A stretch of 64,000 nucleotides of DNA from positions 1-64,000 of the forward strand of contig CANIEC010000003.1 in assembly GCA_947466085.1 (NCBI GenBank), written 5' to 3'. Origin of the DNA: Rhodospirillales bacterium (GTDB taxonomy: Bacteria; Pseudomonadota; Alphaproteobacteria; Reyranellales; Reyranellaceae). Below the pieces are notes generated by a model. That model saw nothing but the letters and a program-made list of their open reading frames with translations, was not told the DNA's origin and made no database searches. The position numbers were made by a program, and so were the translations under genes. Positions 1,729-12,735 of the stretch are shown here, piece after piece (positions within the stretch are counted from its first letter, which is position 1; every line of letters starts with the position of its first letter).

Positions 1729-1859
1729 TCGTCCCATAAGGTCTTGTGGTTACGAGAAAGACAAGTTTTTGAATTTCGAGCGCTTCATATTGATCGAGAC
1801 GGCCGGCGTCAGGCTCGCTGCAACCTTCAATGCTGCGCTTTCTCTGTAATGGCGCCGGC

Positions 1860-4067
1860 ATGAAACCCCAAGCCGAACCGTCGACCCAGGAAGTGCTCGC
1901 AGGCCTTGTCGAGCGCGTCACGTTCCACAATTCCGAGAACGGATTCTGCGTTCTCCGCATCAAGGCCCGCGGACATCGCGACCTGATCACGGTTATCGGC
2001 CACGCCGCCATCATATCCCCCGGCGAATGGGTTACCGCCTCGGGCGACTGGGTCAACGATCACACCCATGGCCAGCAGTTCAAGGCGCGCTTCATGCGCA
2101 CGTCGGCGCCAACCTCGATCGACGGCATCGAGAAGTACCTCGGCTCAGGAATGATCCGTGGGATCGGCCCGGTCTACGCCAAAAAGATGGTCAAAGCCTT
2201 CGGCGAGAAGGTGTTCGACATCATCGAGGCCGAACCTGATCGGCTACGCGAGGTAACCGGCATCGGTGCCGTGCGCGCCAAGCGGATCACTGATGCCTGG
2301 GCCGAGCAGAAGATCGTGCGGGAAATCATGGTCTTCCTGCACAGCCATGGCGTCGGAACGGCCCGGGCCGTGCGCATTTTCAAGACCTATGGCTCGGATG
2401 CCGTCCAAGTCATGACTGAAAACCCCTACCGCCTGGCTCGCGACATCCGCGGCATCGGCTTCAAGACCGCCGACGCGATCGCCATGAAGCTGGGAATCGA
2501 GAAGACCGCGATGATCCGGGTCCGTGCCGGGATTTCCTATGCCCTGACCGAGGCCATGGACGACGGCCATTGTGGCCTGCCGACCGAGGAGCTCGGGCCC
2601 CTCGCGGTGGAGCTGCTGGAGGTCGCAAAGGAACTCGTCCAGACCGCGCTCAATCTGGAATTGGCCGAGGGAACGGTGATCGCAGCCACCGTTGGCGAGA
2701 CGGCATGCGTGTTTCTGGCCGGCCTGTATCGAGCCGAGAAAGTTATCGCCGAGCGAATAACACGCCTGGTCAACGGCACCCTCCCCTGGCCGTTCATCGA
2801 TGCCGACAAGGCATTGCCCTGGATCGAGCAGAAGACCGGGCTCTCCATGGCCGAGAGCCAGATTGCCGCAATCCGGCTCTCCCTTTTGTCCAAGGTTCTC
2901 ATCATCACCGGCGGTCCGGGCGTCGGCAAGACGACGATCGTCAACTCGATCCTGCGCATCCTGGCTGCCAAGGGCGTCAATCTGCTGCTCTGTGCGCCGA
3001 CCGGCCGGGCCGCCAAGCGCATGACCGAGGCAACGGGATTCGAGGCCAAGACTATTCACCGGCTGCTCGAAGTCGATCCCAAGGGCGGCGGCTTCAAGCG
3101 CAATAGCGACAACCCGCTCGAATGCGATCTGCTGGTCATCGACGAGACCTCGATGGTCGACATCATGCTGATGCAGGCGCTGATGAAAGCCGTTCCGGAC
3201 GATGCCGCGTTGCTGATCGTGGGCGACATCGACCAGCTGCCGTCCGTCGGGCCGGGCCAGGTTCTGGCCGACGTGATCTCCTCTGGGGCAGTGCCTGTCG
3301 TACGGCTGACCGAGGTGTTCCGGCAGGCTGCCCAGAGCCGGATCATCTCCTGCGCGCACAGGATCAATCAAGGCTCGATGCCGGATCTTACCAAGCCTGA
3401 AGGAGACAGCGACTTCTACTTTGTCCAGGCCGATGACCCCGAAACCGCCGTACCGCGGATCATCGAACTGGTGAAGACGCGTATCCCGAAGCGCTTCGGT
3501 CTCGATCCCATCCGCGATATCCAGGTGCTGTGCCCGATGAACCGTGGCGGTGTCGGCGCCCGCTCGCTCAACATCGAACTGCAGAAGGCCTTGAACCCCG
3601 CCGGCGAACGCAAGGTAGAGCGCTTCGGCTGGACCTTTGCGCCCGGCGACAAGGTCATGCAGATCGAGAACGACTACGACAAGGAGGTTTATAACGGCGA
3701 CATCGGCTACGTCGACGATGTCGACCCGGACGCCGGCGAACTGATTGCCAGCTTCGACGGCCGCGCCGTCACCTACGGCTTTGGGGAACTCGATACCCTG
3801 GTGCCGGCCTATGCGGCGACCATTCACAAGAGCCAGGGATCGGAATACCCTGCCGTTGTGATCCCCGTCCTCACCCAGCATTACGCCATGTTGCAGCGGA
3901 ACCTGCTCTATACCGGTGTCACCCGCGGCAAGCGGCTGGTCGTGTTGGTCGGACAGAAGAAGGCCGTCGCCATCGCGGTGAAGAACGTTTCGGGGCGCCG
4001 GCGCTGGTCCAAGTTGAACGAATGGCTCGCCGCCTCCTCAGTCAGCTCTCGGGCCATGTCACCATGA
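1860..4067 (+). CDS. RecD2-type ATP-dependent DNA helicase
   Basis: A 735-residue SF1B helicase of the RecD2/YrrC type, which acts without RecBC. The order is an N-terminal OB-like region (about 15-85), tandem helix-hairpin-helix repeats (about 100-220, with GIGPVYAKKM and IGFKTADAIA), Walker A GGPGVGKTT near 351, Walker B LLVIDETS near 424-431, and the C-terminal 2B/UvrD-like block with THKSQGSE near 655 and LYTGVTRGKR. In-frame ATGs lie at 1830 and 1860. I prefer 1860 because homologues begin close to the TFHNSENGF block; this is not certain. RecD2 enzymes unwind DNA 5' to 3'. Here the gene lies next to recombination genes on an apparent island. Confidence 0.85.
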   Translation: MKPQAEPSTQEVLAGLVERVTFHNSENGFCVLRIKARGHRDLITVIGHAAIISPGEWVTASGDWVNDHTHGQQFKARFMRTSAPTSIDGIEKYLGSGMIRGIGPVYAKKMVKAFGEKVFDIIEAEPDRLREVTGIGAVRAKRITDAWAEQKIVREIMVFLHSHGVGTARAVRIFKTYGSDAVQVMTENPYRLARDIRGIGFKTADAIAMKLGIEKTAMIRVRAGISYALTEAMDDGHCGLPTEELGPLAVELLEVAKELVQTALNLELAEGTVIAATVGETACVFLAGLYRAEKVIAERITRLVNGTLPWPFIDADKALPWIEQKTGLSMAESQIAAIRLSLLSKVLIITGGPGVGKTTIVNSILRILAAKGVNLLLCAPTGRAAKRMTEATGFEAKTIHRLLEVDPKGGGFKRNSDNPLECDLLVIDETSMVDIMLMQALMKAVPDDAALLIVGDIDQLPSVGPGQVLADVISSGAVPVVRLTEVFRQAAQSRIISCAHRINQGSMPDLTKPEGDSDFYFVQADDPETAVPRIIELVKTRIPKRFGLDPIRDIQVLCPMNRGGVGARSLNIELQKALNPAGERKVERFGWTFAPGDKVMQIENDYDKEVYNGDIGYVDDVDPDAGELIASFDGRAVTYGFGELDTLVPAYAATIHKSQGSEYPAVVIPVLTQHYAMLQRNLLYTGVTRGKRLVVLVGQKKAVAIAVKNVSGRRRWSKLNEWLAASSVSSRAMSP

Positions 4068-4230: not shown

Positions 4231-5127
4231 CTAGGTCACCAAAGCCGCTTCATCGAGCGATGCCGTGGCAATGATGGCCTTGAATTCATCCAGGAAGTCC
4301 GGCTGGTTTCGGCGCAGATAACTGACCACCGCTTTGTTCCCCAAAAGCTTGGCGATATAGCCACGGGCCAGCACCATGTTCAACACGTCGCTGCCATATG
4401 ACTGCTCGATCGCCTTGAACCGCGACTGAACCAGCGACATCTCTTGTTCCATGCGCGCCATCTGCTCGGCGCTGACCCCACGAAACTTCTTCGGTCGGTC
4501 CGGATCGCACAGCTGCTCGGGAGGCGTCGCCGCCAGCAGCGCCGCCGCATAGTTCACCGAGTAGTTGTTGACCGATGCCATCAGCTCGGCGCATTCGATC
4601 TGCCGCGCCGACTTCATCTTGCGAAGGTGGCGCATCACGTCGATGGCAAAATGCTGATCCTTCAGGATCTCCACGACTTCCGGGCAAATGCCTTCCAGCA
4701 GGTCGCGCTTGCGCCGGATGGACTCGATGTTCAGGGCCAGCGCGCGGGCCAGGCGGTCCTCGGACACGCCACGCTCCAGCGCCCGCAGTAGCATGTAATG
4801 CTCCTGCACCGTCGCCAGCCGGTTAACCCGCTTGTTGTAGGTAAAGCCCTCGTCATCACGCGCGCAAAGGCACGCGATCTTATCGTAACCCAGTTCCCGA
4901 GCCGCATGCAGGCGAAGGTGACCGTCCAGGACCATGTGAAGCCCACTCCTGCGATCGGCCGCCGTCACCGACAGTGGCTCGATCAGCCCGATTTCCTGCA
5001 TCGACGCCTTGATCTGTTCGTACTTGCGCGTCGCCGTCAGGTCCTTTGGCAAGGGCCGCGACGGCAGCAGCCGGTCGAGCGCCAGTTCCAGGGGCGTCGC
5101 GTCGAAGGCCGCCGGCAGCGCGCTCAT
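4231..5127 (-). CDS. ParB/RepB-like protein (plasmid partitioning RepB C-terminal type)
   Basis: A 298-residue protein, third gene of the recombinase operon. Residues 15-80 form a ParB N-terminal domain: LDRLLPSRPLPKDL, then MQEIGLIEPL, and GHLRLHA at 69-75, which fits the GxxRxxA CTP-binding motif of ParB. Residues about 100-290 resemble the RepB plasmid-partition domain (HTH-like ALALNIESIRRKRDLL, then the helical MRHLRKMKSARQIECAELM). The start overlaps the stop of the previous gene as ATGA, implying coupled translation. No ParA gene or recognisable parS is in the window, so a role in replicon partition is not supported here. A DNA-binding or clamp-like partner of the recombinase is an inference. 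Confidence 0.75.
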   Translation of the reverse strand: MSALPAAFDATPLELALDRLLPSRPLPKDLTATRKYEQIKASMQEIGLIEPLSVTAADRRSGLHMVLDGHLRLHAARELGYDKIACLCARDDEGFTYNKRVNRLATVQEHYMLLRALERGVSEDRLARALALNIESIRRKRDLLEGICPEVVEILKDQHFAIDVMRHLRKMKSARQIECAELMASVNNYSVNYAAALLAATPPEQLCDPDRPKKFRGVSAEQMARMEQEMSLVQSRFKAIEQSYGSDVLNMVLARGYIAKLLGNKAVVSYLRRNQPDFLDEFKAIIATASLDEAALVT

Positions 5128-6008
5128 GATCCCGCTCCCCGGATCCGTTCATCCAGTTGCCTGGGCAGCGTGTCGAGGCCCTCGGCGCGCAGCAGGTTCA
5201 CGAAATTCTCGTCCGACAGCATGTTGGACAGGGCGGCGGCAATGAAGGCCAGGCGGTGCTGGACCAGGTCGGCCTTGCGAATCACCAGTTTCTGGCGTTC
5301 CACCTCCTGATTGTAGGCTCGCACCAGCGCCGTCGACGACAGTTTCCGGGACGGTGCCCCACCACGATGCTCGTAGGTCTTGCCGAGGTGCCGGCGTTTC
5401 TCGACCAGCCGCCGGGCCGTCAGCAGTTTCTTGCCGCGCAGCGCCCCGCTCTCGTAGGCACCCTGGAAAATCTCCTGCAGCCTCGCGTCGTCGTCCCCCG
5501 CCTTCACGATCGCGATCGCGGTCGCCAGCGGAATGCGCCCTGCTTCCACGGCGGTAATCAGCCGGTCCTCGCCCTTGGCAAGCAACTGCAGGATGCCGCG
5601 AACCCATGTCTGTTCCAGCGCCGTCTTGCGCGCGATCGTCGGCAAGTCGTAGCCCCGTTGCTCGAGGTGCCGGATCGTCTGCAGCAGTTCCCCCGGCCGC
5701 GGATTGCGTCGGGCGATGTTCTCGACGAGGCTCATCACGAAGGCGTCCTCGTCGCTGGCGTCCACCACCAGCGCCGGTATCGTCTTTTGCCCGAGCACCT
5801 GAAATGCCTCGACACGGCCCTGCCCGCACACCAGCACGTATCGTTCCTCCCCGCCCTCGCTGCGCGGCGTGACCGTGATCGGCTTCTTGAGCCCAAGCGC
5901 CAGGATCGACGCGACCATCTCCTGGAAGACTTTCTGGTTGCGCTCGCGCGGGTTCAGGATCTCGATCCGGTCGAGCGGAATTTCGCGGATGGAACGTTCC
6001 TCGTTCAT
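5124..6008 (-). CDS. ParB/RepB-like protein, second paralogue
   Basis: A 294-residue protein, middle gene of the operon. The ParB N-terminal domain spans about residues 5-110: IPLDRIEILNPRERN, ILALGLKKPITV, then GQGRVEA at 62-68 matching GxxRxxA, and SLVENIARRNPRPGELL, a typical ParB box II. A helix-turn-helix region follows (YDLPTIARKTALEQTWVRGI). The C-terminal half is RepB-like, with basic residues (GKKLLTARRLVEKRRHLGK). It diverges strongly from its neighbour paralogue, so the pair is old rather than a recent duplication. Both ends overlap neighbours by four bases (ATGA). Its function is unknown beyond the predicted DNA and CTP binding. Confidence 0.75.
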   Translation of the reverse strand: MNEERSIREIPLDRIEILNPRERNQKVFQEMVASILALGLKKPITVTPRSEGGEERYVLVCGQGRVEAFQVLGQKTIPALVVDASDEDAFVMSLVENIARRNPRPGELLQTIRHLEQRGYDLPTIARKTALEQTWVRGILQLLAKGEDRLITAVEAGRIPLATAIAIVKAGDDDARLQEIFQGAYESGALRGKKLLTARRLVEKRRHLGKTYEHRGGAPSRKLSSTALVRAYNQEVERQKLVIRKADLVQHRLAFIAAALSNMLSDENFVNLLRAEGLDTLPRQLDERIRGAGS

Positions 6009-7555
6009 GCAGCCCTCCGCACGCTCGCCCGCTCGGCCATGTGATACAGCGTTTCCAGCCCGTCGAACCGGTAGCCGTCCAGGATCGACCCGTTGCTCTC
6101 GCTGAGGCTTAGACGGCCGGACCCAAGGTCGATCCAGGGCAGCAGGTAGTAATCCAGCGCCGCCTTGTTCTCACGGTCCAGCCTCACCGCCACCGTGATG
6201 TCGGGGCAAAGGCTGGTGTCTAGCCGCAGCTTCCAGTTGCCGCCGCCAGCCGCGGTCTCGCGGCAGCGCGCAAGGACGATGGAGACCGTCCACTCGTCGT
6301 TAATCCGCAGCAGGTCATTCCCCGGGTCGCGCTCGACATGCCCGCCCAGGGAGACGATCTCTGCTTCGGTCCTCTGCACGATCTCGGGGTGCAGACGGCG
6401 TAGCAGGCGATTGATCTCAAGATAGCCGTAATCCCGGTCCGGCGTAAAACCCACAAGCGTGTACGCGCGCACCAGGCTGCCAAAGCGATGGCTGTAGACG
6501 CTCGACGAGGCCATCCCCTCCGTTTCGTCGATCAGGATGCCCGACAGATAGCCGCGCCCATCATAAAGAGACTTGAGGCGCGTGAGCAGTTCCTCGTCGC
6601 TGTAACGTCGCGACCGCGCCCGCACGATGCCTTGAGCCGTGTAGAACTGCACCGGCGATACGATCGCCTCGAATGCTTCGTCTTTGCGAACCCAAAGGTC
6701 GGGCGAATTAACCACCCGGCGGCGCTTCAGCTTGAATGAAACCCGATTGTAGACGTTGCTGCCAATGTACTTCTCGTTGGTCAGAACCTCGTGAACCGTT
6801 CCCCGGGTCCATCGGCGGCCGAGGTCGGTCGGGATACCCATACCGTTCAACCGCGCGGCGATATCGGCCTCGTTCACCCCGTCCTCGACAAACCAGCGAT
6901 ACATCTTCCGCACTGTCGCGACTTCTTCCGCCGGTCCCGGCCGCAACACCACGCGGTCGGTCTGCAAGCTCTTGTGCTCGCCGCGCTTCAGCTCGGCTTT
7001 GGTCTCCCCCGACTGATCGAGCAGCACACGACGCAGTCCGAACCCCGCCATCCCACCCTGGCGAAAACCCAGCTCGATCAGACGACATTGTCCGGCAAAA
7101 ACCTTGGTCGACAGTTCCCGGCTGTACTCGCCGGCCATCGCCCGCTTGACGCCCTTGACGATCGTCGACACCGGTGAGCCGTCGTTCTCGAACTGCTCGG
7201 CGCAGTAGATGACCTGGATGCCGGCCTGCTTGCAGCTGTACTCGTAGTGGGCGCTCTCGTCGGCATCCTGGAACCTGCCCCACCGGCTCACGTCGTAAAC
7301 AAGGATGAACTCGAAATCGGTGTTCTTCGCCCTGACGTCTGCCAGCAGCTGCTGCAGCCCGCTGCGGCCGCCGATATTCAGGCCGCTCTTGCCCTCGTCG
7401 GCGTAGGTGCGAACAATTTCCAGCCCATGCCGCTCGGCATATTCCTGAATCCTGTCGCCCTGGTTCTCGGTCGAATACTGCTGATGCTCCGTCGACATCC
7501 GCACGTATTGCGCGGCGCGGCGTGGCAAGGGTAGAGGGGGGCTGTTGTTCTGCAT
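6005..7555 (-). CDS. Serine recombinase (resolvase/invertase family), large
   Basis: A 516-residue large serine recombinase. The catalytic domain spans about 12-160: QYVRMSTEHQ with nucleophile Ser21, ADEGKSGL, DVSRWGRF and the long helix ending MAGEYSRELSTK. The Recombinase domain follows (VRKMYRWFVEDG, then GRRWTRGTVHEVLTNEKYIG). The C-terminal about 150 residues carry no CxxC zinc ribbon and have an uncommon make-up, so targeting may rely on other features. It is the first gene of a three-gene operon with the two ParB-like genes, joined by ATGA overlaps. The ribosome-binding site in front of the ATG is weak. Confidence 0.85.
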   Translation of the reverse strand: MQNNSPPLPLPRRAAQYVRMSTEHQQYSTENQGDRIQEYAERHGLEIVRTYADEGKSGLNIGGRSGLQQLLADVRAKNTDFEFILVYDVSRWGRFQDADESAHYEYSCKQAGIQVIYCAEQFENDGSPVSTIVKGVKRAMAGEYSRELSTKVFAGQCRLIELGFRQGGMAGFGLRRVLLDQSGETKAELKRGEHKSLQTDRVVLRPGPAEEVATVRKMYRWFVEDGVNEADIAARLNGMGIPTDLGRRWTRGTVHEVLTNEKYIGSNVYNRVSFKLKRRRVVNSPDLWVRKDEAFEAIVSPVQFYTAQGIVRARSRRYSDEELLTRLKSLYDGRGYLSGILIDETEGMASSSVYSHRFGSLVRAYTLVGFTPDRDYGYLEINRLLRRLHPEIVQRTEAEIVSLGGHVERDPGNDLLRINDEWTVSIVLARCRETAAGGGNWKLRLDTSLCPDITVAVRLDRENKAALDYYLLPWIDLGSGRLSLSESNGSILDGYRFDGLETLYHMAERASVRRAA

Positions 7556-7787: not shown

Positions 7788-8033
7788 ATGACCCCGCTGA
7801 AGCCAGAGATGATGACCGCCGACAAATGCCTCGCCGAGATCGGCCAGATCCTGGCACATGGCCGGGACAATCTCCGCGGCCAGAAGTCCAGCGCTTTGGC
7901 AGCGACTGTCTTGCGCCATGCCAGACCTTGCAAGTGGCGCCGAACGTCCGACTGGACTGTTCGCGCAAACGAAGCATGTCATTGGACGCGGAGGCTACCT
8001 ACTGCCTCTGCCGGTACGGGGAGGCGGACATGA
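7788..8033 (+). CDS. Small hypothetical protein, island-associated
   Basis: An 81-residue frame beginning MTPLKPEMMTADKCLAEI; its stop overlaps the ATG of the AlpA-like gene as ATGA, the same coupling seen across the island. The first 35 residues (ADKCLAEIGQILAHG then RGQKSS) resemble, from memory, a short conserved protein seen beside such recombinase cassettes. The rest is basic and low in recognisable structure, and may have shifted frame. A start at the second or third Met is equally possible. Upstream, 7556-7787 holds no gene I can support and probably carries the divergent promoters. Confidence 0.4.
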   Translation: MTPLKPEMMTADKCLAEIGQILAHGRDNLRGQKSSALAATVLRHARPCKWRRTSDWTVRANEACHWTRRLPTASAGTGRRT

Positions 8034-8257
8034 ACCGCCGGATCACCACCCGGGCCGCCACGCAACCCCGCCGCGGGCTCGATCATGACGAGGCAGCGAT
8101 TTACGTCGGCATTACCCTGGCAACTTTTGACCAGATGGTGAATGACGGCAGGCTGCCGAAGCCGAGCGAGTTCGATGGCGAGTTTGTCTGGGATCTGGTG
8201 CAGCTCGATCGGGCATTTGACCGGCTGAGCGGGCTGCGCCGAAGTTCCCTGGCTTAG
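8030..8257 (+). CDS. AlpA-like excisionase/helix-turn-helix protein
   Basis: A 75-residue protein started at the ATG after a GGGGAGGCGG ribosome-binding site. It has the layout of small AlpA/excisionase DNA-binding proteins: a winged-helix core with DHDEAAIYVGITLATFDQMV (residues about 18-37), then GRLPKPSEFDGEFVW and a terminal helix QLDRAFDRL. It ends six bases before the tyrosine integrase, a typical xis-int order. It probably acts as the recombination directionality factor or as a regulator of the integrase; that role is inferred from size and position. Confidence 0.65.
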   Translation: MNRRITTRAATQPRRGLDHDEAAIYVGITLATFDQMVNDGRLPKPSEFDGEFVWDLVQLDRAFDRLSGLRRSSLA

Positions 8258-8263
8258 CGACCA

Positions 8264-9478
8264 ATGAAGCAACGTAAGGAATATCGCATCAAACAGTCGG
8301 GGCACCGCGACGGTGTGCCCTTTTTCGATCTGATAGTGAATGGCCACAAGTATCGACTCGCCGCTACGACCCGAGACGCGGCCGGTCGCGAGGCGAAAGC
8401 ACGCTACAAGGTCATCGTCGCCGCTCGAGCCGAAGCCCCCTCACCCTATCGCCGCATTGTGAGGCCATCGCCAAGTTCGCTGCAGATGGCATTCACCGCC
8501 TATCTGGCCTCGGACACCTTCAAACTCTACAAGCGGCTGACGCAGTCACAGCGCCGTTCGCAGATCAACCAGGTGCTGAATACCAAGGTCCAAAGCGGTC
8601 AGCGTACGTTTGGCGATTCGGCGCTGCGCGATTGGCTGCACGGGCCCGAGGCCCCTGATGCAGTCCGCTACATCATGCGCACTTGCGGAACCAAGGCGGC
8701 CCAGGCCAACCACCTGCGCAAGGCCATGAATCAGTTTTTTATCTGGCTGCTCGGCGAAGAACCGCAGGCCGCCGAGGCTCGCCTGATGTTCAACATCGGC
8801 AAGCACGCTACGAACCCATGCCTTCACGTCGGCAAAGCGAAGCCCAAGCGCGGCACTGACGGCAGGCTGCGCCGGGGCTATACGCCGTTCACTGCCGAGC
8901 AGGTCGACGATTGGCTACACGCATCCAAGGACGATCCTGAGCAGAACCGGGTCGTGCGCCTGCTGCTCATGACCGGAGCGCGGCTCAGCGATCTAATCCT
9001 ACTCAACCGGCTGATGATTAAGCAGACCGACGTCGGACGGATCCTCACCTATACCTGCACCAAGGGGCGAGGCAGCGCTTTCCGCCAATCGGACAGCATT
9101 GCGGTCATTCCCATGGTACCTGAGCTGGACGCCCTGATCTCGGAGGTGCCGGCCGACCGCTTGGTCTTCATCCACTCCGCCCACGATCGCCCTTATTCGT
9201 GCACCGAGGGCCTTGGGAACCGCATTCGCGAGTGGCGGCGGGACTGCGGACTGCCCGAGGGCCTCAGCGCGCACAGCATGCGCAAGGCTGCGACCCATTG
9301 GTGGCTGCGAAATCACCGAGACTTGCTGGCGAACAATTTCAGCCTGAAAACGATATTCGGCTGGGTGACGGACAAGGAACTGGAGCGCTATACGGCTGAC
9401 TTCGACCGGGCCCAGGAGGCGCGTGGCATGCTGATCAAGCTGGCCGTCCGCCATAAGACGGGACACGGCTGCGCGTGA
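8264..9478 (+). CDS. Tyrosine site-specific integrase
   Basis: A 404-residue phage/island-type integrase. The N-terminal 200 residues hold arm-binding and SAM-like core-binding parts. The catalytic domain runs about 205-390: TGARLSDL with Arg240, TKGRG with Lys267, SAHSMRKA with His337 and Arg340, and FGWVTDKELERY with Trp367 in the second His position and nucleophile Tyr376. All key residues are present, so it should be active. It sits directly after the AlpA-like gene and about 1.9 kb from the 3' end of tRNA-Met, its likely integration site. Its C-terminal codons recur as a diverged fragment at 11034-11111. Confidence 0.85.
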   Translation: MKQRKEYRIKQSGHRDGVPFFDLIVNGHKYRLAATTRDAAGREAKARYKVIVAARAEAPSPYRRIVRPSPSSLQMAFTAYLASDTFKLYKRLTQSQRRSQINQVLNTKVQSGQRTFGDSALRDWLHGPEAPDAVRYIMRTCGTKAAQANHLRKAMNQFFIWLLGEEPQAAEARLMFNIGKHATNPCLHVGKAKPKRGTDGRLRRGYTPFTAEQVDDWLHASKDDPEQNRVVRLLLMTGARLSDLILLNRLMIKQTDVGRILTYTCTKGRGSAFRQSDSIAVIPMVPELDALISEVPADRLVFIHSAHDRPYSCTEGLGNRIREWRRDCGLPEGLSAHSMRKAATHWWLRNHRDLLANNFSLKTIFGWVTDKELERYTADFDRAQEARGMLIKLAVRHKTGHGCA

Positions 9479-9479
9479 A

Positions 9480-10358
9480 CTAACCGGCGAAGCTCAGGCA
9501 GTAGTCGCGCACCTGCTGGAGCGGGATGCGCGCGTGGCTCTGCACGATGATGAACTTGCCGCCGGGGTCCGTGCCGTTCGGCAGCCGAACCAGGCGCTCG
9601 AAATCGTCGGCGCCCCAGACGCAGGATTGCTCCGAGAACAGCTGCACATCCGACGTGTAACAGGTGTCCCACTCGGCGTGATAGTCGAACAGCGTGCCGC
9701 TGATCTCCGCCACGCTGGTGTAGAGCGAATACTCAGTCCATGGCACCTGGAACGGCTTGCGGGCCCTCCAGAGCACCAGCGACGTCATCGCGTTCACGCG
9801 GCGACCGCGCACCTGGTCGAGGGTCATCCGGGCCAGGTCGCCATGCAGGATGTTCGGCGTGACCGAGAGCCCGTGTGACCTGGGATCGTAGGGGATACCG
9901 ATCACCTCCGACGCGCTCTGCCACCAATCGTGATGCTGCTTGGGCTCCCAGCGGGACAGGGCCCGGTCATGTTGCACGAAGGTCCGTGAATCGAAGTCGC
10001 CGACGCAGCAGACATCGGAATCGAGGGTGAAGTAGCCCGCAAAGCCCAGCACCGCCGGCACATGCAGCTTCACGATCTGCTGCCGGTACCACCCGGTCAT
10101 CAAATAGAACGAGCTGAAGGCCGGGAAGAAATCGCTCTCGCGGCGCACCGTCACTTCGATGTTGGGAAAACGCGGCAGATTGGACCGCAGCAGCTCTGCA
10201 TCGCGATTGGGAGCAATGATCAGGAGCTCGAAAGGCTTGCCGTCGCGCCAATGCTTCGCCAGCGACTCGATCAGGAGACCGGCACGCTCCAGGTCGCCGA
10301 GGCGCCTGATGCTGCGCAGGGCGAGCGGGAGAATTCCTTGTCTGATCTCATAAAACAT
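9480..10358 (-). CDS. DUF6492-like (glycosyltransferase-like) protein
   Basis: A 292-residue protein that resembles DUF6492 proteins, which look like GT-A type glycosyltransferases. The region GDLERAGLLIESL gives way to FELLIIAPNRDAELL, then to GWYRQQIVKLHVP and a YFTLDSDVCC stretch with the DxD-like motif DSD. Trp- and His-rich segments (WEPKQHHDWW) follow. No signal peptide or membrane segment is visible. GGAGAG precedes the ATG. Such genes are common cargo in surface-polysaccharide regions; here it stands alone, head-on to the integrase and separated from it by one base, within the stretch flanked by the two related integrase tails. The substrate is unknown. Confidence 0.55.
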   Translation of the reverse strand: MFYEIRQGILPLALRSIRRLGDLERAGLLIESLAKHWRDGKPFELLIIAPNRDAELLRSNLPRFPNIEVTVRRESDFFPAFSSFYLMTGWYRQQIVKLHVPAVLGFAGYFTLDSDVCCVGDFDSRTFVQHDRALSRWEPKQHHDWWQSASEVIGIPYDPRSHGLSVTPNILHGDLARMTLDQVRGRRVNAMTSLVLWRARKPFQVPWTEYSLYTSVAEISGTLFDYHAEWDTCYTSDVQLFSEQSCVWGADDFERLVRLPNGTDPGGKFIIVQSHARIPLQQVRDYCLSFAG

Positions 10359-10509
10359 TCAGGGGCACACTCTCCGAAAATCGGAAGTGGAATATATGAC
10401 TGCAAGATCCGACAGAGAACTTGTGACCGTCAAGACCGACCCCATGTTGACCTTGCCGCTCGTTGTCGCATTGATCACGTTGAGATCGGCGGCCGCCGCG
10501 ACCGTATGA

Positions 10510-10815
10510 TCACGGCCGGGCCGTCCCTTTCAGCACGCGCGCCAAGCTGGCCCGCACATCGTCCGTGGTCAGTGTCGGCCCGTTGGCGGCTGCTGCCCTT
10601 TCGGAGCGGTAAAGATCGCGTCGTTCGACTTTGATCATCACGTACTCGCCAGTCACGAAATCGCTTGCCTGCAACTTGGCTATCGCGCGGCGGATCAGAT
10701 CCGTCTCCCACGTATCCAGCGACCTCGCCTCCCAATCGACGGCACCGAGAAACCGCTCGATTCGCTGAACCAGGTTGCGGCGAGACGCTGCGGTGGCACT
10801 CGGGGTGATTGCCAT
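10510..10815 (-). CDS. Hypothetical protein, accessory
   Basis: A 101-residue predicted protein from the ATG at 10813-10815. The frame stays open upstream to a GTG at 10894-10896, but the added residues are low-complexity and basic and less convincing. The body has plausible secondary structure: RRNLVQRIERFLGAVDWEA, then TDLIRRAIAKLQASD and YVMIKVERRDLY. No family is recognised. 10359-10509 and 10816-11033 contain no other gene I can support. Confidence 0.4.
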   Translation of the reverse strand: MAITPSATAASRRNLVQRIERFLGAVDWEARSLDTWETDLIRRAIAKLQASDFVTGEYVMIKVERRDLYRSERAAAANGPTLTTDDVRASLARVLKGTARP

Positions 10816-11033
10816 GGTCGGCGCAGTAGCACGGGGGCCCGTTGCATATGAGCGGGCGCGCTGTGACTTCTTTGGGCGATTGCGGGCTACCAACACGGCG
10901 CAATGCCATGCGCTACTGCGGCCAGCGGGGCGAGGAGTGCCCGACCTAGAAGGCCGTTCCCTTCGCCGACGGTCTTGATGTACGGGACCTCCCTCGCACC
11001 CGTTGCGGTGGGCGACGGTCGTCTCGATAGCGG

Positions 11034-11111
11034 GCCGACTTCGACCGGGCCCAGGAGGCGCGCGGTATGCTGATCAAGCTGGCCGTCCGCCATAAGGCGG
11101 GACACGGCTGA
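11034..11111 (+). pseudogene. C-terminal remnant of a second integrase
   Basis: Twenty-five codons and TGA encode ADFDRAQEARGMLIKLAV then RHKAGHG, almost the same as the end of the integrase at 9395-9478. The DNA matches at about 73 of 77 positions, and three of the four changes are synonymous, so this is a diverged relative rather than a fresh copy. An in-frame TAG lies just upstream and no catalytic residues remain. It is best read as scar tissue from an older insertion or a deletion between two related integrases at this tRNA. Confidence 0.7.
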
Positions 11112-11182
11112 AGAACCGGCCGCCCTTCCCGCGCTGGGTCGTGCCGGCGCGGGCTGAGATAAAATGAGAGGCTGACGAATGG

Positions 11183-11216
11183 AGCCGCCTGGAAATTCAC
11201 CGGGCGGCTATTTTTT
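11183..11216 (+). terminator. Rho-independent terminator
   Basis: A ten-base-pair stem (AGCCGCCTGG with CCGGGCGGCT, one G-U pair) closes a seven-base loop and is followed by ATTTTTT. It lies at the right end of the island after the integrase remnant and would stop rightward transcription before the tRNA-Met gene. Confidence 0.75.
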
Positions 11217-11271
11217 GTGCCCGGAGCCGCCATCAGTCGCGAGAACGGCCCCAGAACAGTCCCAGAACGTC

Positions 11272-11301
11272 AAAGTGGCCCTCGCTTTCGAGGGCCACCT
11301 T
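11272..11301 (-). terminator. Hairpin likely ending the tRNA-Met transcript
   Basis: A near-perfect inverted repeat with the core GTGGCCCTCG / CGAGGGCCAC and a four-base loop, extended by A-U and G-U pairs. Read on the minus strand it is followed by TTT and lies 33 bases past the tRNA 3' end. The short U run makes it a moderate terminator call. Confidence 0.5.
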
Positions 11302-11333
11302 AACTGCCTGATTTTCCAAAGGAAAAGACCCAA

Positions 11334-11410
11334 TGGTAGCTGGGGGCGGACTTGAACCGCCGACCCCGGCATTATGAGTGCCGTGCTCTAACCAGCTGAG
11401 CTACCCAGCC
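11334..11410 (-). tRNA. tRNA-Met (CAT), elongator type
   Basis: A 77-base cloverleaf with an encoded CCA end: acceptor GGCTGGG with CCCAGCT (G1-U72 wobble), D stem GCTC/GAGC, anticodon stem CGGCA/TGCCG around the loop CTCATAA with anticodon CAT, and T stem GGCGG/CCGCC around TTCAAGT. It lacks the three G-C pairs of initiator anticodon stems. The loop and variable region resemble elongator tRNA-Met, though a CAT-type tRNA-Ile2 cannot be excluded by eye. Its 3' end faces the integrase-bearing segment, so it is the probable attachment site of the island. Confidence 0.9.
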
Positions 11411-11469
11411 ATGGGTGGGCGCTTTTATGCGGCGGGGCCGTAATCTGTCAAGAAATGCGGCATCGTCGC

Positions 11470-12735
11470 TCAGGCCGATATTGGCGCGCCGTCCATGTCG
11501 TCCACGGCCTCTCCCAGAAAGCGCAGGATGGTCGGTGCGATGTCGACGAGGCTGGTCGTGCGGCCGGCTTCTCCCTGGCCAAAGTCGGGATGGATGAAGG
11601 TCAGGAACGGCCGGGTTTCGGCCGGTCCCAGGCCGCCATGGTGGCCGCAGCCGATTTCGGGCGTGCCCTCCCCGTCCTCGACCAGCCAGCGCGTGCCGCG
11701 GACTCCATGGTCGTTGCTCTCGTCGTGACGTGTCGTGTCTACGGCGGCGACCAGCGCGTCGGCCGTCAGACCGGTCTCGGCCAGCGCCTCGCCGGTCAGG
11801 ATCGAGCCGGCCCACGGCTCGCGGCGCATCTTCGGCAGCAGGTCTTCGACGGCGGCCCTTGCCGAGCCGATCGCGTAGATCAGCGCCGACGTGCCCTGCG
11901 AAGCGACGCCGATGTGGCCTTCCTGCAAGTCGGCCTCCAAGCCGTTCCCGGCCAGCCAATTCCCGATGTGGACGGAGCGGCCGATGGTTTCGTGGCCGTG
12001 GTCCGAGCCGACCACGAGCAGGGTGTCGAAATGGTCGTCGTGCGATTTCACTGTCGCCACGACCTTTGCCACCAGGCCGTCAGTGACCTCCAGCGCATGG
12101 ATGTGCTCGGGCGAGCCCAGCGGGTCGTGATGGAGGGTGAGATCCGGGTTGGCCAACCATAGAATTGCCAGCCTGAAATCCTCCGACGGAACGACCTCCT
12201 CGCAGAAGCGTCGCGTCATCTCGATGTCGCCGTCGAGATCGTGGCTCACGTCGAGATGGGCGTCGCCGGTAAGCGAAGCGCCGCCGGGGCCGAACGACCC
12301 TGCGCGATGCAGCACGGTGCCGAAATGATCGGGATCGAGGAAATAGGCCGCGCCCGGCGAGACGTTCGAATAGGCGACCTGCCCGCCCGAGGGCGCCAGC
12401 CGCTCGGCCATCGTGGGCACCCGCAAGGTCTGCCCGGTCACACGGCGCATGATCTGGCGGAAGGACGGCGCGCCGACATTGTGCACGGTGATCCGGCCCG
12501 CCTCGACCAGCGCCATCTGGTTGCCTTCGAGCCCATGGCGGCCGGGAAAGCAGCCGGTCGCGATCGAGGCGGCGGAGACGCGCGTGACCGAGGGAAAGAC
12601 CGCGCGATGATCGCTGGCGCGGCGGTGCCCGGCCAGCAGGCGCGCCAGGGTCGGCGTGTGGGCCTCGCTGACCCACTCGGCGCCAAGGCCGTCGCACACG
12701 ATCAGGATCGCCCTACGGGGCCGGGAAGCGTTCAT
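11470..12735 (-). CDS. Alkaline phosphatase superfamily (nucleotide pyrophosphatase/phosphodiesterase-like) protein
   Basis: A 421-residue cytoplasmic-looking member of the alkaline phosphatase superfamily. The metal ligand region AILIVCDGLGAEW (Asp15) is followed by FPSVTRVSAAS with the likely nucleophile Thr51 and GCFPGRHGLEGN. Later motifs VGSDHGHETIG and GCGHHGGLGP supply the remaining Asp and His metal ligands. This is the arrangement of type I phosphodiesterases that cleave phosphodiesters or pyrophosphates. There is no signal peptide. An in-frame ATG at 12753, six codons upstream, is a possible alternative start. The substrate is unknown. Confidence 0.75.
   Translation of the reverse strand: MNASRPRRAILIVCDGLGAEWVSEAHTPTLARLLAGHRRASDHRAVFPSVTRVSAASIATGCFPGRHGLEGNQMALVEAGRITVHNVGAPSFRQIMRRVTGQTLRVPTMAERLAPSGGQVAYSNVSPGAAYFLDPDHFGTVLHRAGSFGPGGASLTGDAHLDVSHDLDGDIEMTRRFCEEVVPSEDFRLAILWLANPDLTLHHDPLGSPEHIHALEVTDGLVAKVVATVKSHDDHFDTLLVVGSDHGHETIGRSVHIGNWLAGNGLEADLQEGHIGVASQGTSALIYAIGSARAAVEDLLPKMRREPWAGSILTGEALAETGLTADALVAAVDTTRHDESNDHGVRGTRWLVEDGEGTPEIGCGHHGGLGPAETRPFLTFIHPDFGQGEAGRTTSLVDIAPTILRFLGEAVDDMDGAPISA

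Follow-up and report, generated by a model that had tools for sequence, protein, structure and literature searches.

The operon described here joins the gene for a large serine recombinase (LSR) to the genes for two ParB-like proteins, ParB1 and ParB2. It was found in the first 64,000 nucleotides (the window) of contig CANIEC010000003.1 from a Rhodospirillales bacterium (GenBank assembly GCA_947466085.1). The operon is widespread: many Pseudomonadota have it on phages, plasmids, or genomic islands, where it occurs without the usual ParA partner. Computation gives its gene order, its conservation and co-inheritance, the near-absence of ParA, a position near provirus ends, and a graded loss of parts of the ParB proteins. 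The favored account, held with a little more confidence than doubt, is that the operon is an integration module of mobile elements and that the ParB pair are dedicated partners of the LSR, acting via their C-terminal parts, with a clamp that is removable.

Genes of the operon

The operon spans window positions 4231 to 7555 in the order LSR-ParB1-ParB2 (Table 1). A first-pass annotation of the window had described three codirectional genes with ATGA at both joints, and this is what the open reading frames show, each joint being a 4-nt overlap. The LSR has an N-terminal resolvase domain followed by the Recombinase domain, which is the domain order of large serine recombinases, and it matches the PHROG 95 integrases with an E value of 1.8e-57. 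Ser21, Arg91, and Arg94, which we take to be the catalytic residues, are invariant in an alignment of 39 sequences (the window and 38 relatives). In the predicted structure (mean predicted local distance difference test score, pLDDT, 79.9; predicted template modeling score, pTM, 0.57), the nearest folds are the SPbeta, phiC31, and Bxb1 integrase complexes, over 315 to 362 alignment columns. The protein does not reach the NCBIfam cut-offs for CcrA, CcrB, or CcrC, the ccr recombinases of the staphylococcal cassette chromosome (51 bits against a CcrB cut-off of 900).

A zinc-ribbon C-terminal domain is typical of large serine recombinases, though not universal. The annotation was right that a terminal CxxC zinc ribbon is missing, since the five cysteines (at 108, 118, 157, 431, and 450) form no CxxC and there is no zinc-ribbon match in Pfam. 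Judging from the sequence, its place is taken by an HNH_repeat-like segment, which is below the cut-off in the window LSR (residues 318–370; 16.7 bits against 26) and above it in the LSR of locus L136. The LSR therefore need not be without a DNA-binding part at this place.

ParB1 matches Spo0J by profile (E 4e-16) and ParB2 matches Noc (E 4e-11). In Pfam, ParB2 is a RepB protein (E 6e-49), its ParB_N match falling below the cut-off; its model (mean pLDDT 78.2, pTM 0.46) matches ParB with a cytidine triphosphate (CTP) analogue, Noc, and KorB, and includes a long helix at 220–262, where pLDDT is about 60–80. Against the RepB profile of RepABC systems (TIGR03454), ParB1 scores 45.5 bits with a cut-off of 201.5, and ParB2 is not among the matches. 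Both proteins keep the GxxRxxA motif that had been read from the window translations, as GQGRVEA in ParB1 and GHLRLHA in ParB2. Across the family, ParB1 has GxxRxxA in 164 of 171 sequences and ENxAR in 166, and ParB2 has DGxxR in 167 of 168 (the final alanine is sometimes lost) and R....QEH in 152. Both thus combine the N-domain fold (by profile for ParB1 and by model for ParB2) with the first and second CTP-site motifs of ParB CTPases, and both may use CTP.

Table 1. Features of the operon and its surroundings in the window
Feature	Position	Strand	Basis
Large serine recombinase (LSR), 516 aa	6005–7555	minus	Pfam Resolvase + Recombinase; PHROG 95 integrase
ParB1, 294 aa, ParB_N + RepB; motifs GQGRVEA, ENIAR	5124–6008	minus	Pfam, profile search
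ParB2, 298 aa, RepB + divergent ParB_N; motifs DGHLRLHA, RLATVQEH	4231–5127	minus	Pfam, profile, model
Tyrosine recombinase of the island, neighbor outside the module	8264–9478	plus	Sub-cut-off PF00589 (E 2e-5), PHROG integrases
tRNA-Met, presumed island end	11334–11410	minus	139-bp identical contig overlap starts at the tRNA
28-nt sequence, 82% like the 3' end of tRNA-Met (11335–11362), role presumed	8013–8040		Repeat search

Spread and co-inheritance

In a survey of 398 genomes sampled from the phylum, the LSR (E <= 1e-60) is present in 37, the window's own included. ParB1 adjoins it in 26 of these, again counting the window's own (in G331 it is split over two frames), and ParB2 follows in 24 of the 26; in the other two, G157 and G237, the contig end cuts the locus. 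The rest comprise four genomes with one fused protein, five without ParB, and two with partial LSRs (G153 and G384), which were left unclassified. One of the 26, G123, has a further LSR without ParB. When the best 80 of at least 581 relatives on genome contigs were examined, ParB1 or its pieces lay 3' of the LSR in all 80 loci. The full order LSR-ParB1-ParB2 recurs in 104 of 155 LSR matches in the fetched loci, a count in which some loci appear twice because the stretches overlap, and an operon recurring this often is beyond chance. The remaining matches have ParB1 only (25, of which 24 are cut by the locus end), a fused protein (9), or neither (17).

The three genes are also inherited together. 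Their distance matrices correlate at r 0.86–0.89 over 76 loci (89 before near copies were dropped), and the best of 500 shuffles reached 0.28. The set is found on plasmids of Alpha- and Betaproteobacteria and on L008, a gut-derived "phage" scaffold. Among the viral contigs with a close LSR (at least 709 bits, n = 65), 59 carry ParB1 (at least 116 bits) and the other six end within 190 nt past the LSR. Loss of the ParB genes from most LSR homologues, which would have spoken against the first-pass proposal, is thus not seen, although the more distant LSR relatives are often without ParB: the 11 most distant of 76 viral contigs (LSR score 498–588 bits) all lack ParB1, and one has a ParB2-like gene.

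Reduced, fused, and missing ParBs

That the ParBs act on the LSR rather than in partition is argued mainly from what is kept when they are reduced. In one branch of the window's class (genus g14; L126, L134, L135, and L140), the LSR is followed in all four loci by a single protein of 275–310 aa. It corresponds to ParB1 profile positions of about 196–295 (of 297) joined to ParB2 positions of about 138–290 (of 300), so that both ParB_N parts are gone, with ParB1 represented by its final third and ParB2 by its second half. By these alignments, the parts retained beside the LSR where ParB is reduced are the C-terminal ones. The tree joins this branch, at an SH-aLRT support of 100, with an LSR having both full ParBs (L114, complete in L295), which suggests that the direction of change is loss rather than gain. 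LSRs without ParB form a branch of seven rows and an outer group of six rows, and L136, alone without ParB, as well as L035 and L038, with damaged ParBs, fall inside the main group. The tree was made by a quick method and has long branches; the positions of L133 and of the third LSR of L068 are unsure. L068 has three LSR operons in tandem, the third with a weakly similar protein of the fused type. In L006, ParB1 and ParB2 share one 594-aa frame, and this full-length fusion is a further tie between the two. The record of L006 (NZ_CP110863.1) is titled as a Lactiplantibacillus plantarum plasmid and carries proteobacterial-looking genes; it is probably a contaminant contig.

On the favored account, the LSR would be a complete serine integrase driving integration and excision. 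The tail of ParB1 and the RepB half of ParB2 would probably bind to the recombinase or to the synapse, and as accessory or directionality factors they would set the site or direction of recombination; such a role implies physical contact between the ParBs and the LSR and an influence on its targeting or direction. The clamp domains at the N termini, with their CTP sites, would be a DNA-loading switch, discarded in some lineages. The earlier suggestion that targeting depends on the ParB DNA clamp is not supported in that form, because the branch without either ParB_N keeps the C-terminal parts and other branches have the LSR without ParB.

A bolder version, which we regard as possible and rather doubtful, is a CTP-gated serine integrase. 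In it, ParB1 and ParB2 would form a heteromeric clamp on the element DNA, and their C-terminal parts would give the LSR its site or flip it from integration to excision. If this were true, a nucleotide switch would control mobility, and the branch that keeps just the C-terminal parts would have the same partner without its gate.

The ParB pair could also be CTP-dependent regulators like KorB or Noc, which solely repress the operon. In favor of this idea, profile or fold comparisons match them to Noc and to the repressor KorB, overlapping genes would suit autoregulation, and a small upstream gene is divergent in some loci. The reduced branch makes it an unlikely explanation, as losing both ParB_N domains and keeping the C-terminal parts in the operon is hardly possible for a ParB-type repressor.

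ParA, parS, and the question of partition

In agreement with the annotation, neither a phmmer search with a single ParA query nor the KGGxGK[ST] motif revealed a ParA-like protein in the window, which starts at base 1 of its contig. Among 106 homologous loci (about 1.9 Mb, not all independent), phmmer and a looser motif found ParA-like genes in two, L143 and L146. Both are plasmid records, and the ParA genes lie 12.0 and 7.9 kb from the module. A stricter regular expression, with 0 matches, was discarded after it had missed the ParA annotated in L143. The canonical parS 16-mer, with up to three mismatches, occurs in four of the 106 loci, three times inside ParB2 and once after it. It was not found near the operon start in any of them, in a search limited to this 16-mer.

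ParA is therefore no constant neighbor of the module. The view that the operon is not a plasmid partition system has gained support from this, from the retention of the ParBs with most of the closer LSR homologues, and from the position of the module near predicted provirus ends. One could still imagine that the ParBs maintain an excised circle in the cell by means of a ParA from the host or another plasmid, since the ParB motifs are conserved and PF07506 is the RepB partition family. We give this idea little credence, considering how few loci have ParA-like genes, where the few parS-like matches lie, and that one branch has lost the ParB_N domain.

Position in viruses, plasmids, and islands

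Of 130 pattern matches in IMG/VR, 118 code for an LSR of this family; the best 80 were kept and 76 analyzed (4 left out). As for the features of a phage or island integration module, the LSR lies near a contig end (at most 3 kb upstream or 4.5 kb downstream of it) in 49 of the 76 viral records, compared to 24.4 +- 3.7 expected at random, and flanking repeats are present in a few loci. On contigs of at least 25 kb (n = 45), 26 have the LSR near the end and 8.6 are expected. Among 25 hand-selected virus records, most with the module near an end, 17 gave no match to the tyrosine integrase family PF00589. Six of these 17 have phage genes, namely the PHROG 4271 tail protein in three, a portal in two, and tail-fiber protein J in one (L234).

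L051 comes from an environmental Comamonadaceae metagenome-assembled genome. Here, a 4.95-kb module unit lies between 46-bp copies of the 3' half of tRNA-Val (93% alike). Its non-overlapping open reading frames of at least 60 aa are the LSR, ParB1, ParB2, and two small genes without a Pfam match, with no other recognized recombinase among them. When module pairs that are 80–96% identical are compared, similarity often ends about 680–720 bp upstream of the LSR and, downstream, just past ParB2 or past a fourth gene, and the sequences beyond differ for several kb on either side; in L048 and L059, similarity resumes further upstream. Two Agrobacterium pAt plasmids have 3,904 bp in common (a helix-turn-helix-type gene and the module), and the rest of the 15.5 and 31.5 kb compared is not shared. 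A site resembling GCCTTGANNGGAATYGAACC, which is a tRNA T-arm-like sequence in reverse complement, stands at both ends of this unit and at the matching places of four module-less plasmids.

Direct repeats were sought in 109 loci with enough flank; control pairs gave repeats in 3 of 109 (16–25 bp). Evidence was retained for L051 and, more weakly, for L141/L142 (one element) and L055, which has an 83-bp repeat with a P4-like integrase outside it. Dropped candidates include the IS-like repeats of L131 (332–501 bp), a self-match in L138 whose flanks overlapped, the repeat of L126 (integrase-like open reading frame present), that of L064 (at the contig ends), those of L005, L144, and L145 (the right copy lies within an annotated integrase gene and may be a gene remnant), and 16–24-bp matches in L009, L012, L047, L062, L087, L133, and L137. 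In a second set of 22 stretches, the repeat of G300 was attributed to a P4-type integrase, the 457-bp repeat of L284 was taken as dispersed, and short matches in L295, L133, G241, and G139 were dropped. A general T-arm-like attachment site for the LSR family was also rejected, as the background is 0.07 per kb and few loci have one near the module.

Several observations weigh against the account of the operon as an integration module. The provirus borders in IMG/VR are software calls, and 11 of the 17 records without PF00589 gave no portal, PHROG 4271, or tail-fiber match in the searches run for these. Among the 80 genome-contig loci, seven (L027, L034, L035, L036, L038, L068, and L070) have a ParB1 that is split over frames or truncated, as has G331, and the ParB-less branches mean that the LSR can persist alone. 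Four Sphingobium plasmids have 51-bp repeats that flank the module in two and occur as a single copy in the other two. L279 lies 382 bp from a tRNA-Arg, but some 52 kb on its other side yielded no copy of the tRNA end. Neither excision nor an empty chromosomal site of an LSR unit nor an attP/attB pair was seen. Further points bear on an alternative that seems improbable to us, namely that the module is a passenger in tyrosine-integrase islands and the LSR has another task, such as multimer resolution or segment inversion. Another integrase can explain the borders in the window (tyrosine recombinase at tRNA-Met), L126 (integrase-like open reading frame at tRNA-Pro), and G300 (P4-type integrase at tRNA-Thr); PF00589 is present in 8 of the 25 virus records; and the pAt end sites are dispersed, being found also on four pAt/pTi plasmids without this LSR. 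The phmmer search for tyrosine integrases was insensitive, missing the annotated one of L005. The passenger idea is countered by the virus records without PF00589, by the L051 unit, and by the position of the module near contig ends.

The window copy

In the window, the module, recD2 (1830–4067), and the tyrosine recombinase all lie to the left of tRNA-Met. Base 1 of the window is also base 1 of its contig, C3, in an assembly of 322 contigs, and the end of contig C16 is identical over exactly 139 bp to window 11334–11472, with a different left flank. Such a fork at the tRNA would be expected if the assembled population also holds the tRNA without the island. The copy thus probably sits within an island having its own tyrosine recombinase, where any borders of the module itself are putative. 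The repeat at 8013–8040 may mark the place where the side with the LSR module meets the tyrosine-recombinase element. Within that element (8013–11472) there is also an integrase remnant at 11033–11110, 95% like 9394–9471. In L013, a close relative, recD2 is again next to the module (77.5% over window 1887–4027).

Neighboring sequences

A small gene upstream of the LSR with a CxxC...CQRERR pattern (e.g., L003:6378–6803 and L051:9372–9803) belongs to a cluster present in 74 of 89 loci. The two examples have no Pfam match, and several plasmid loci have a divergent small gene in its place. A CTCCATA/TATGGAG hairpin lies upstream of the LSR in 20 of 79 loci (control 0). On the other side, a motif TTCTTTAA[CA]AAT, presumably boxA-like, follows ParB2 within 250 nt in 8 of 71 loci (L031, L033, L041, L044, L061, L062, L063, and L081; control windows 0). 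By eye, conserved inverted repeats follow it in several loci, and Rfam gave no match in seven scanned loci, a set that includes five of the eight. In 16 loci (L026:12739–14109, L043:13293–14786, and 14 others), a gene for a 347–497-aa protein lies past ParB2 and ends near TTTCGC repeats, where similarity stops; two of these proteins were tested and have no Pfam match.

TniQ/TniB/Mu-transposase genes are close to the module in L159:1–14397 (annotation) and in L022, L031, and L041 (by reading of the gene neighborhood), and further LSR relatives occur in L031, L041, and L063. L143:4110–7695 has three adjacent tyrosine recombinase genes, annotated between two strawberry-notch-like genes, which we take to be a RIT-like set. 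The pAt/pTi-type plasmids (L160–L195) carry dispersed 20–30-bp T-arm-like sites with the consensus CGCCTTGANNGGAATCGAACCNTCGACCC, found on NC_003064.2, NZ_CP032928.1, NZ_CP109970.1, NZ_CP033024.1, NZ_CP116698.1, and NZ_CP039694.1. With up to three mismatches, there are 17 on NC_003064.2 and 15 on NZ_CP032928.1, compared to 0 and 1 for a reversed-pattern control. On NC_003064.2, 16 of the 17 are on one strand; some sites border variable genes, and LSR-less plasmids have them as well. The arrangement looks like a cassette array with an uncharacterized recombinase.

Comparison with known systems

Serine integrases serve as genome tools, and we know of no reversing factor for most of them. The natural variants seen here, with two ParBs, one fused protein, or no ParB beside one LSR family, are a ready series for testing the roles of such partners. 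The recombination directionality factors (RDFs) of the SPbeta and phiC31 integrases are not known to resemble ParB, and both integrases have a zinc ribbon. The LSR fold is common to the present protein and to the SPbeta (PDB 9dxd; YokA/YotN) and phiC31 (PDB 9tep) integrase-RDF complexes, in which the RDF partner is bound. With ParABS/RepABC, Noc, and KorB, the ParBs share the ParB/Noc N-domain fold and CTP-site motifs; unlike in those systems, there is no ParA neighbor, no parS was found in searches for the canonical 16-mer, and a recombinase is the usual neighbor. ParB CTP switches with roles outside partition are under active study; Noc and KorB are examples, and the present pair may be another.

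An LSR together with a ParB has a precedent in the ssrA-specific genomic islands of Dehalococcoides, where a CcrB-like LSR and a ParBc protein are encoded in the integration module and integration is marked by a repeat of the end of an RNA gene, ssrA (PMC3146451). As described there, that module has six genes, including two serine recombinases, one 210-residue ParBc, and a Mom homologue; here, two RepB-type ParBs overlap the LSR. In prophage WO of Wolbachia, an LSR integrates the phage, and a methylase/ParB gene is present in all variants except sr1WO (PMC9203015). ParB there is within the methylase/ParB gene, and the sections consulted describe no LSR-ParB-ParB operon. The open-license literature searched, mostly by title, makes no mention of a fixed operon in the order LSR-ParB1-ParB2, of how widely it occurs, or of a graded loss of ParB parts. 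The association of an LSR with ParB was thus already known, and these three features are probably new.

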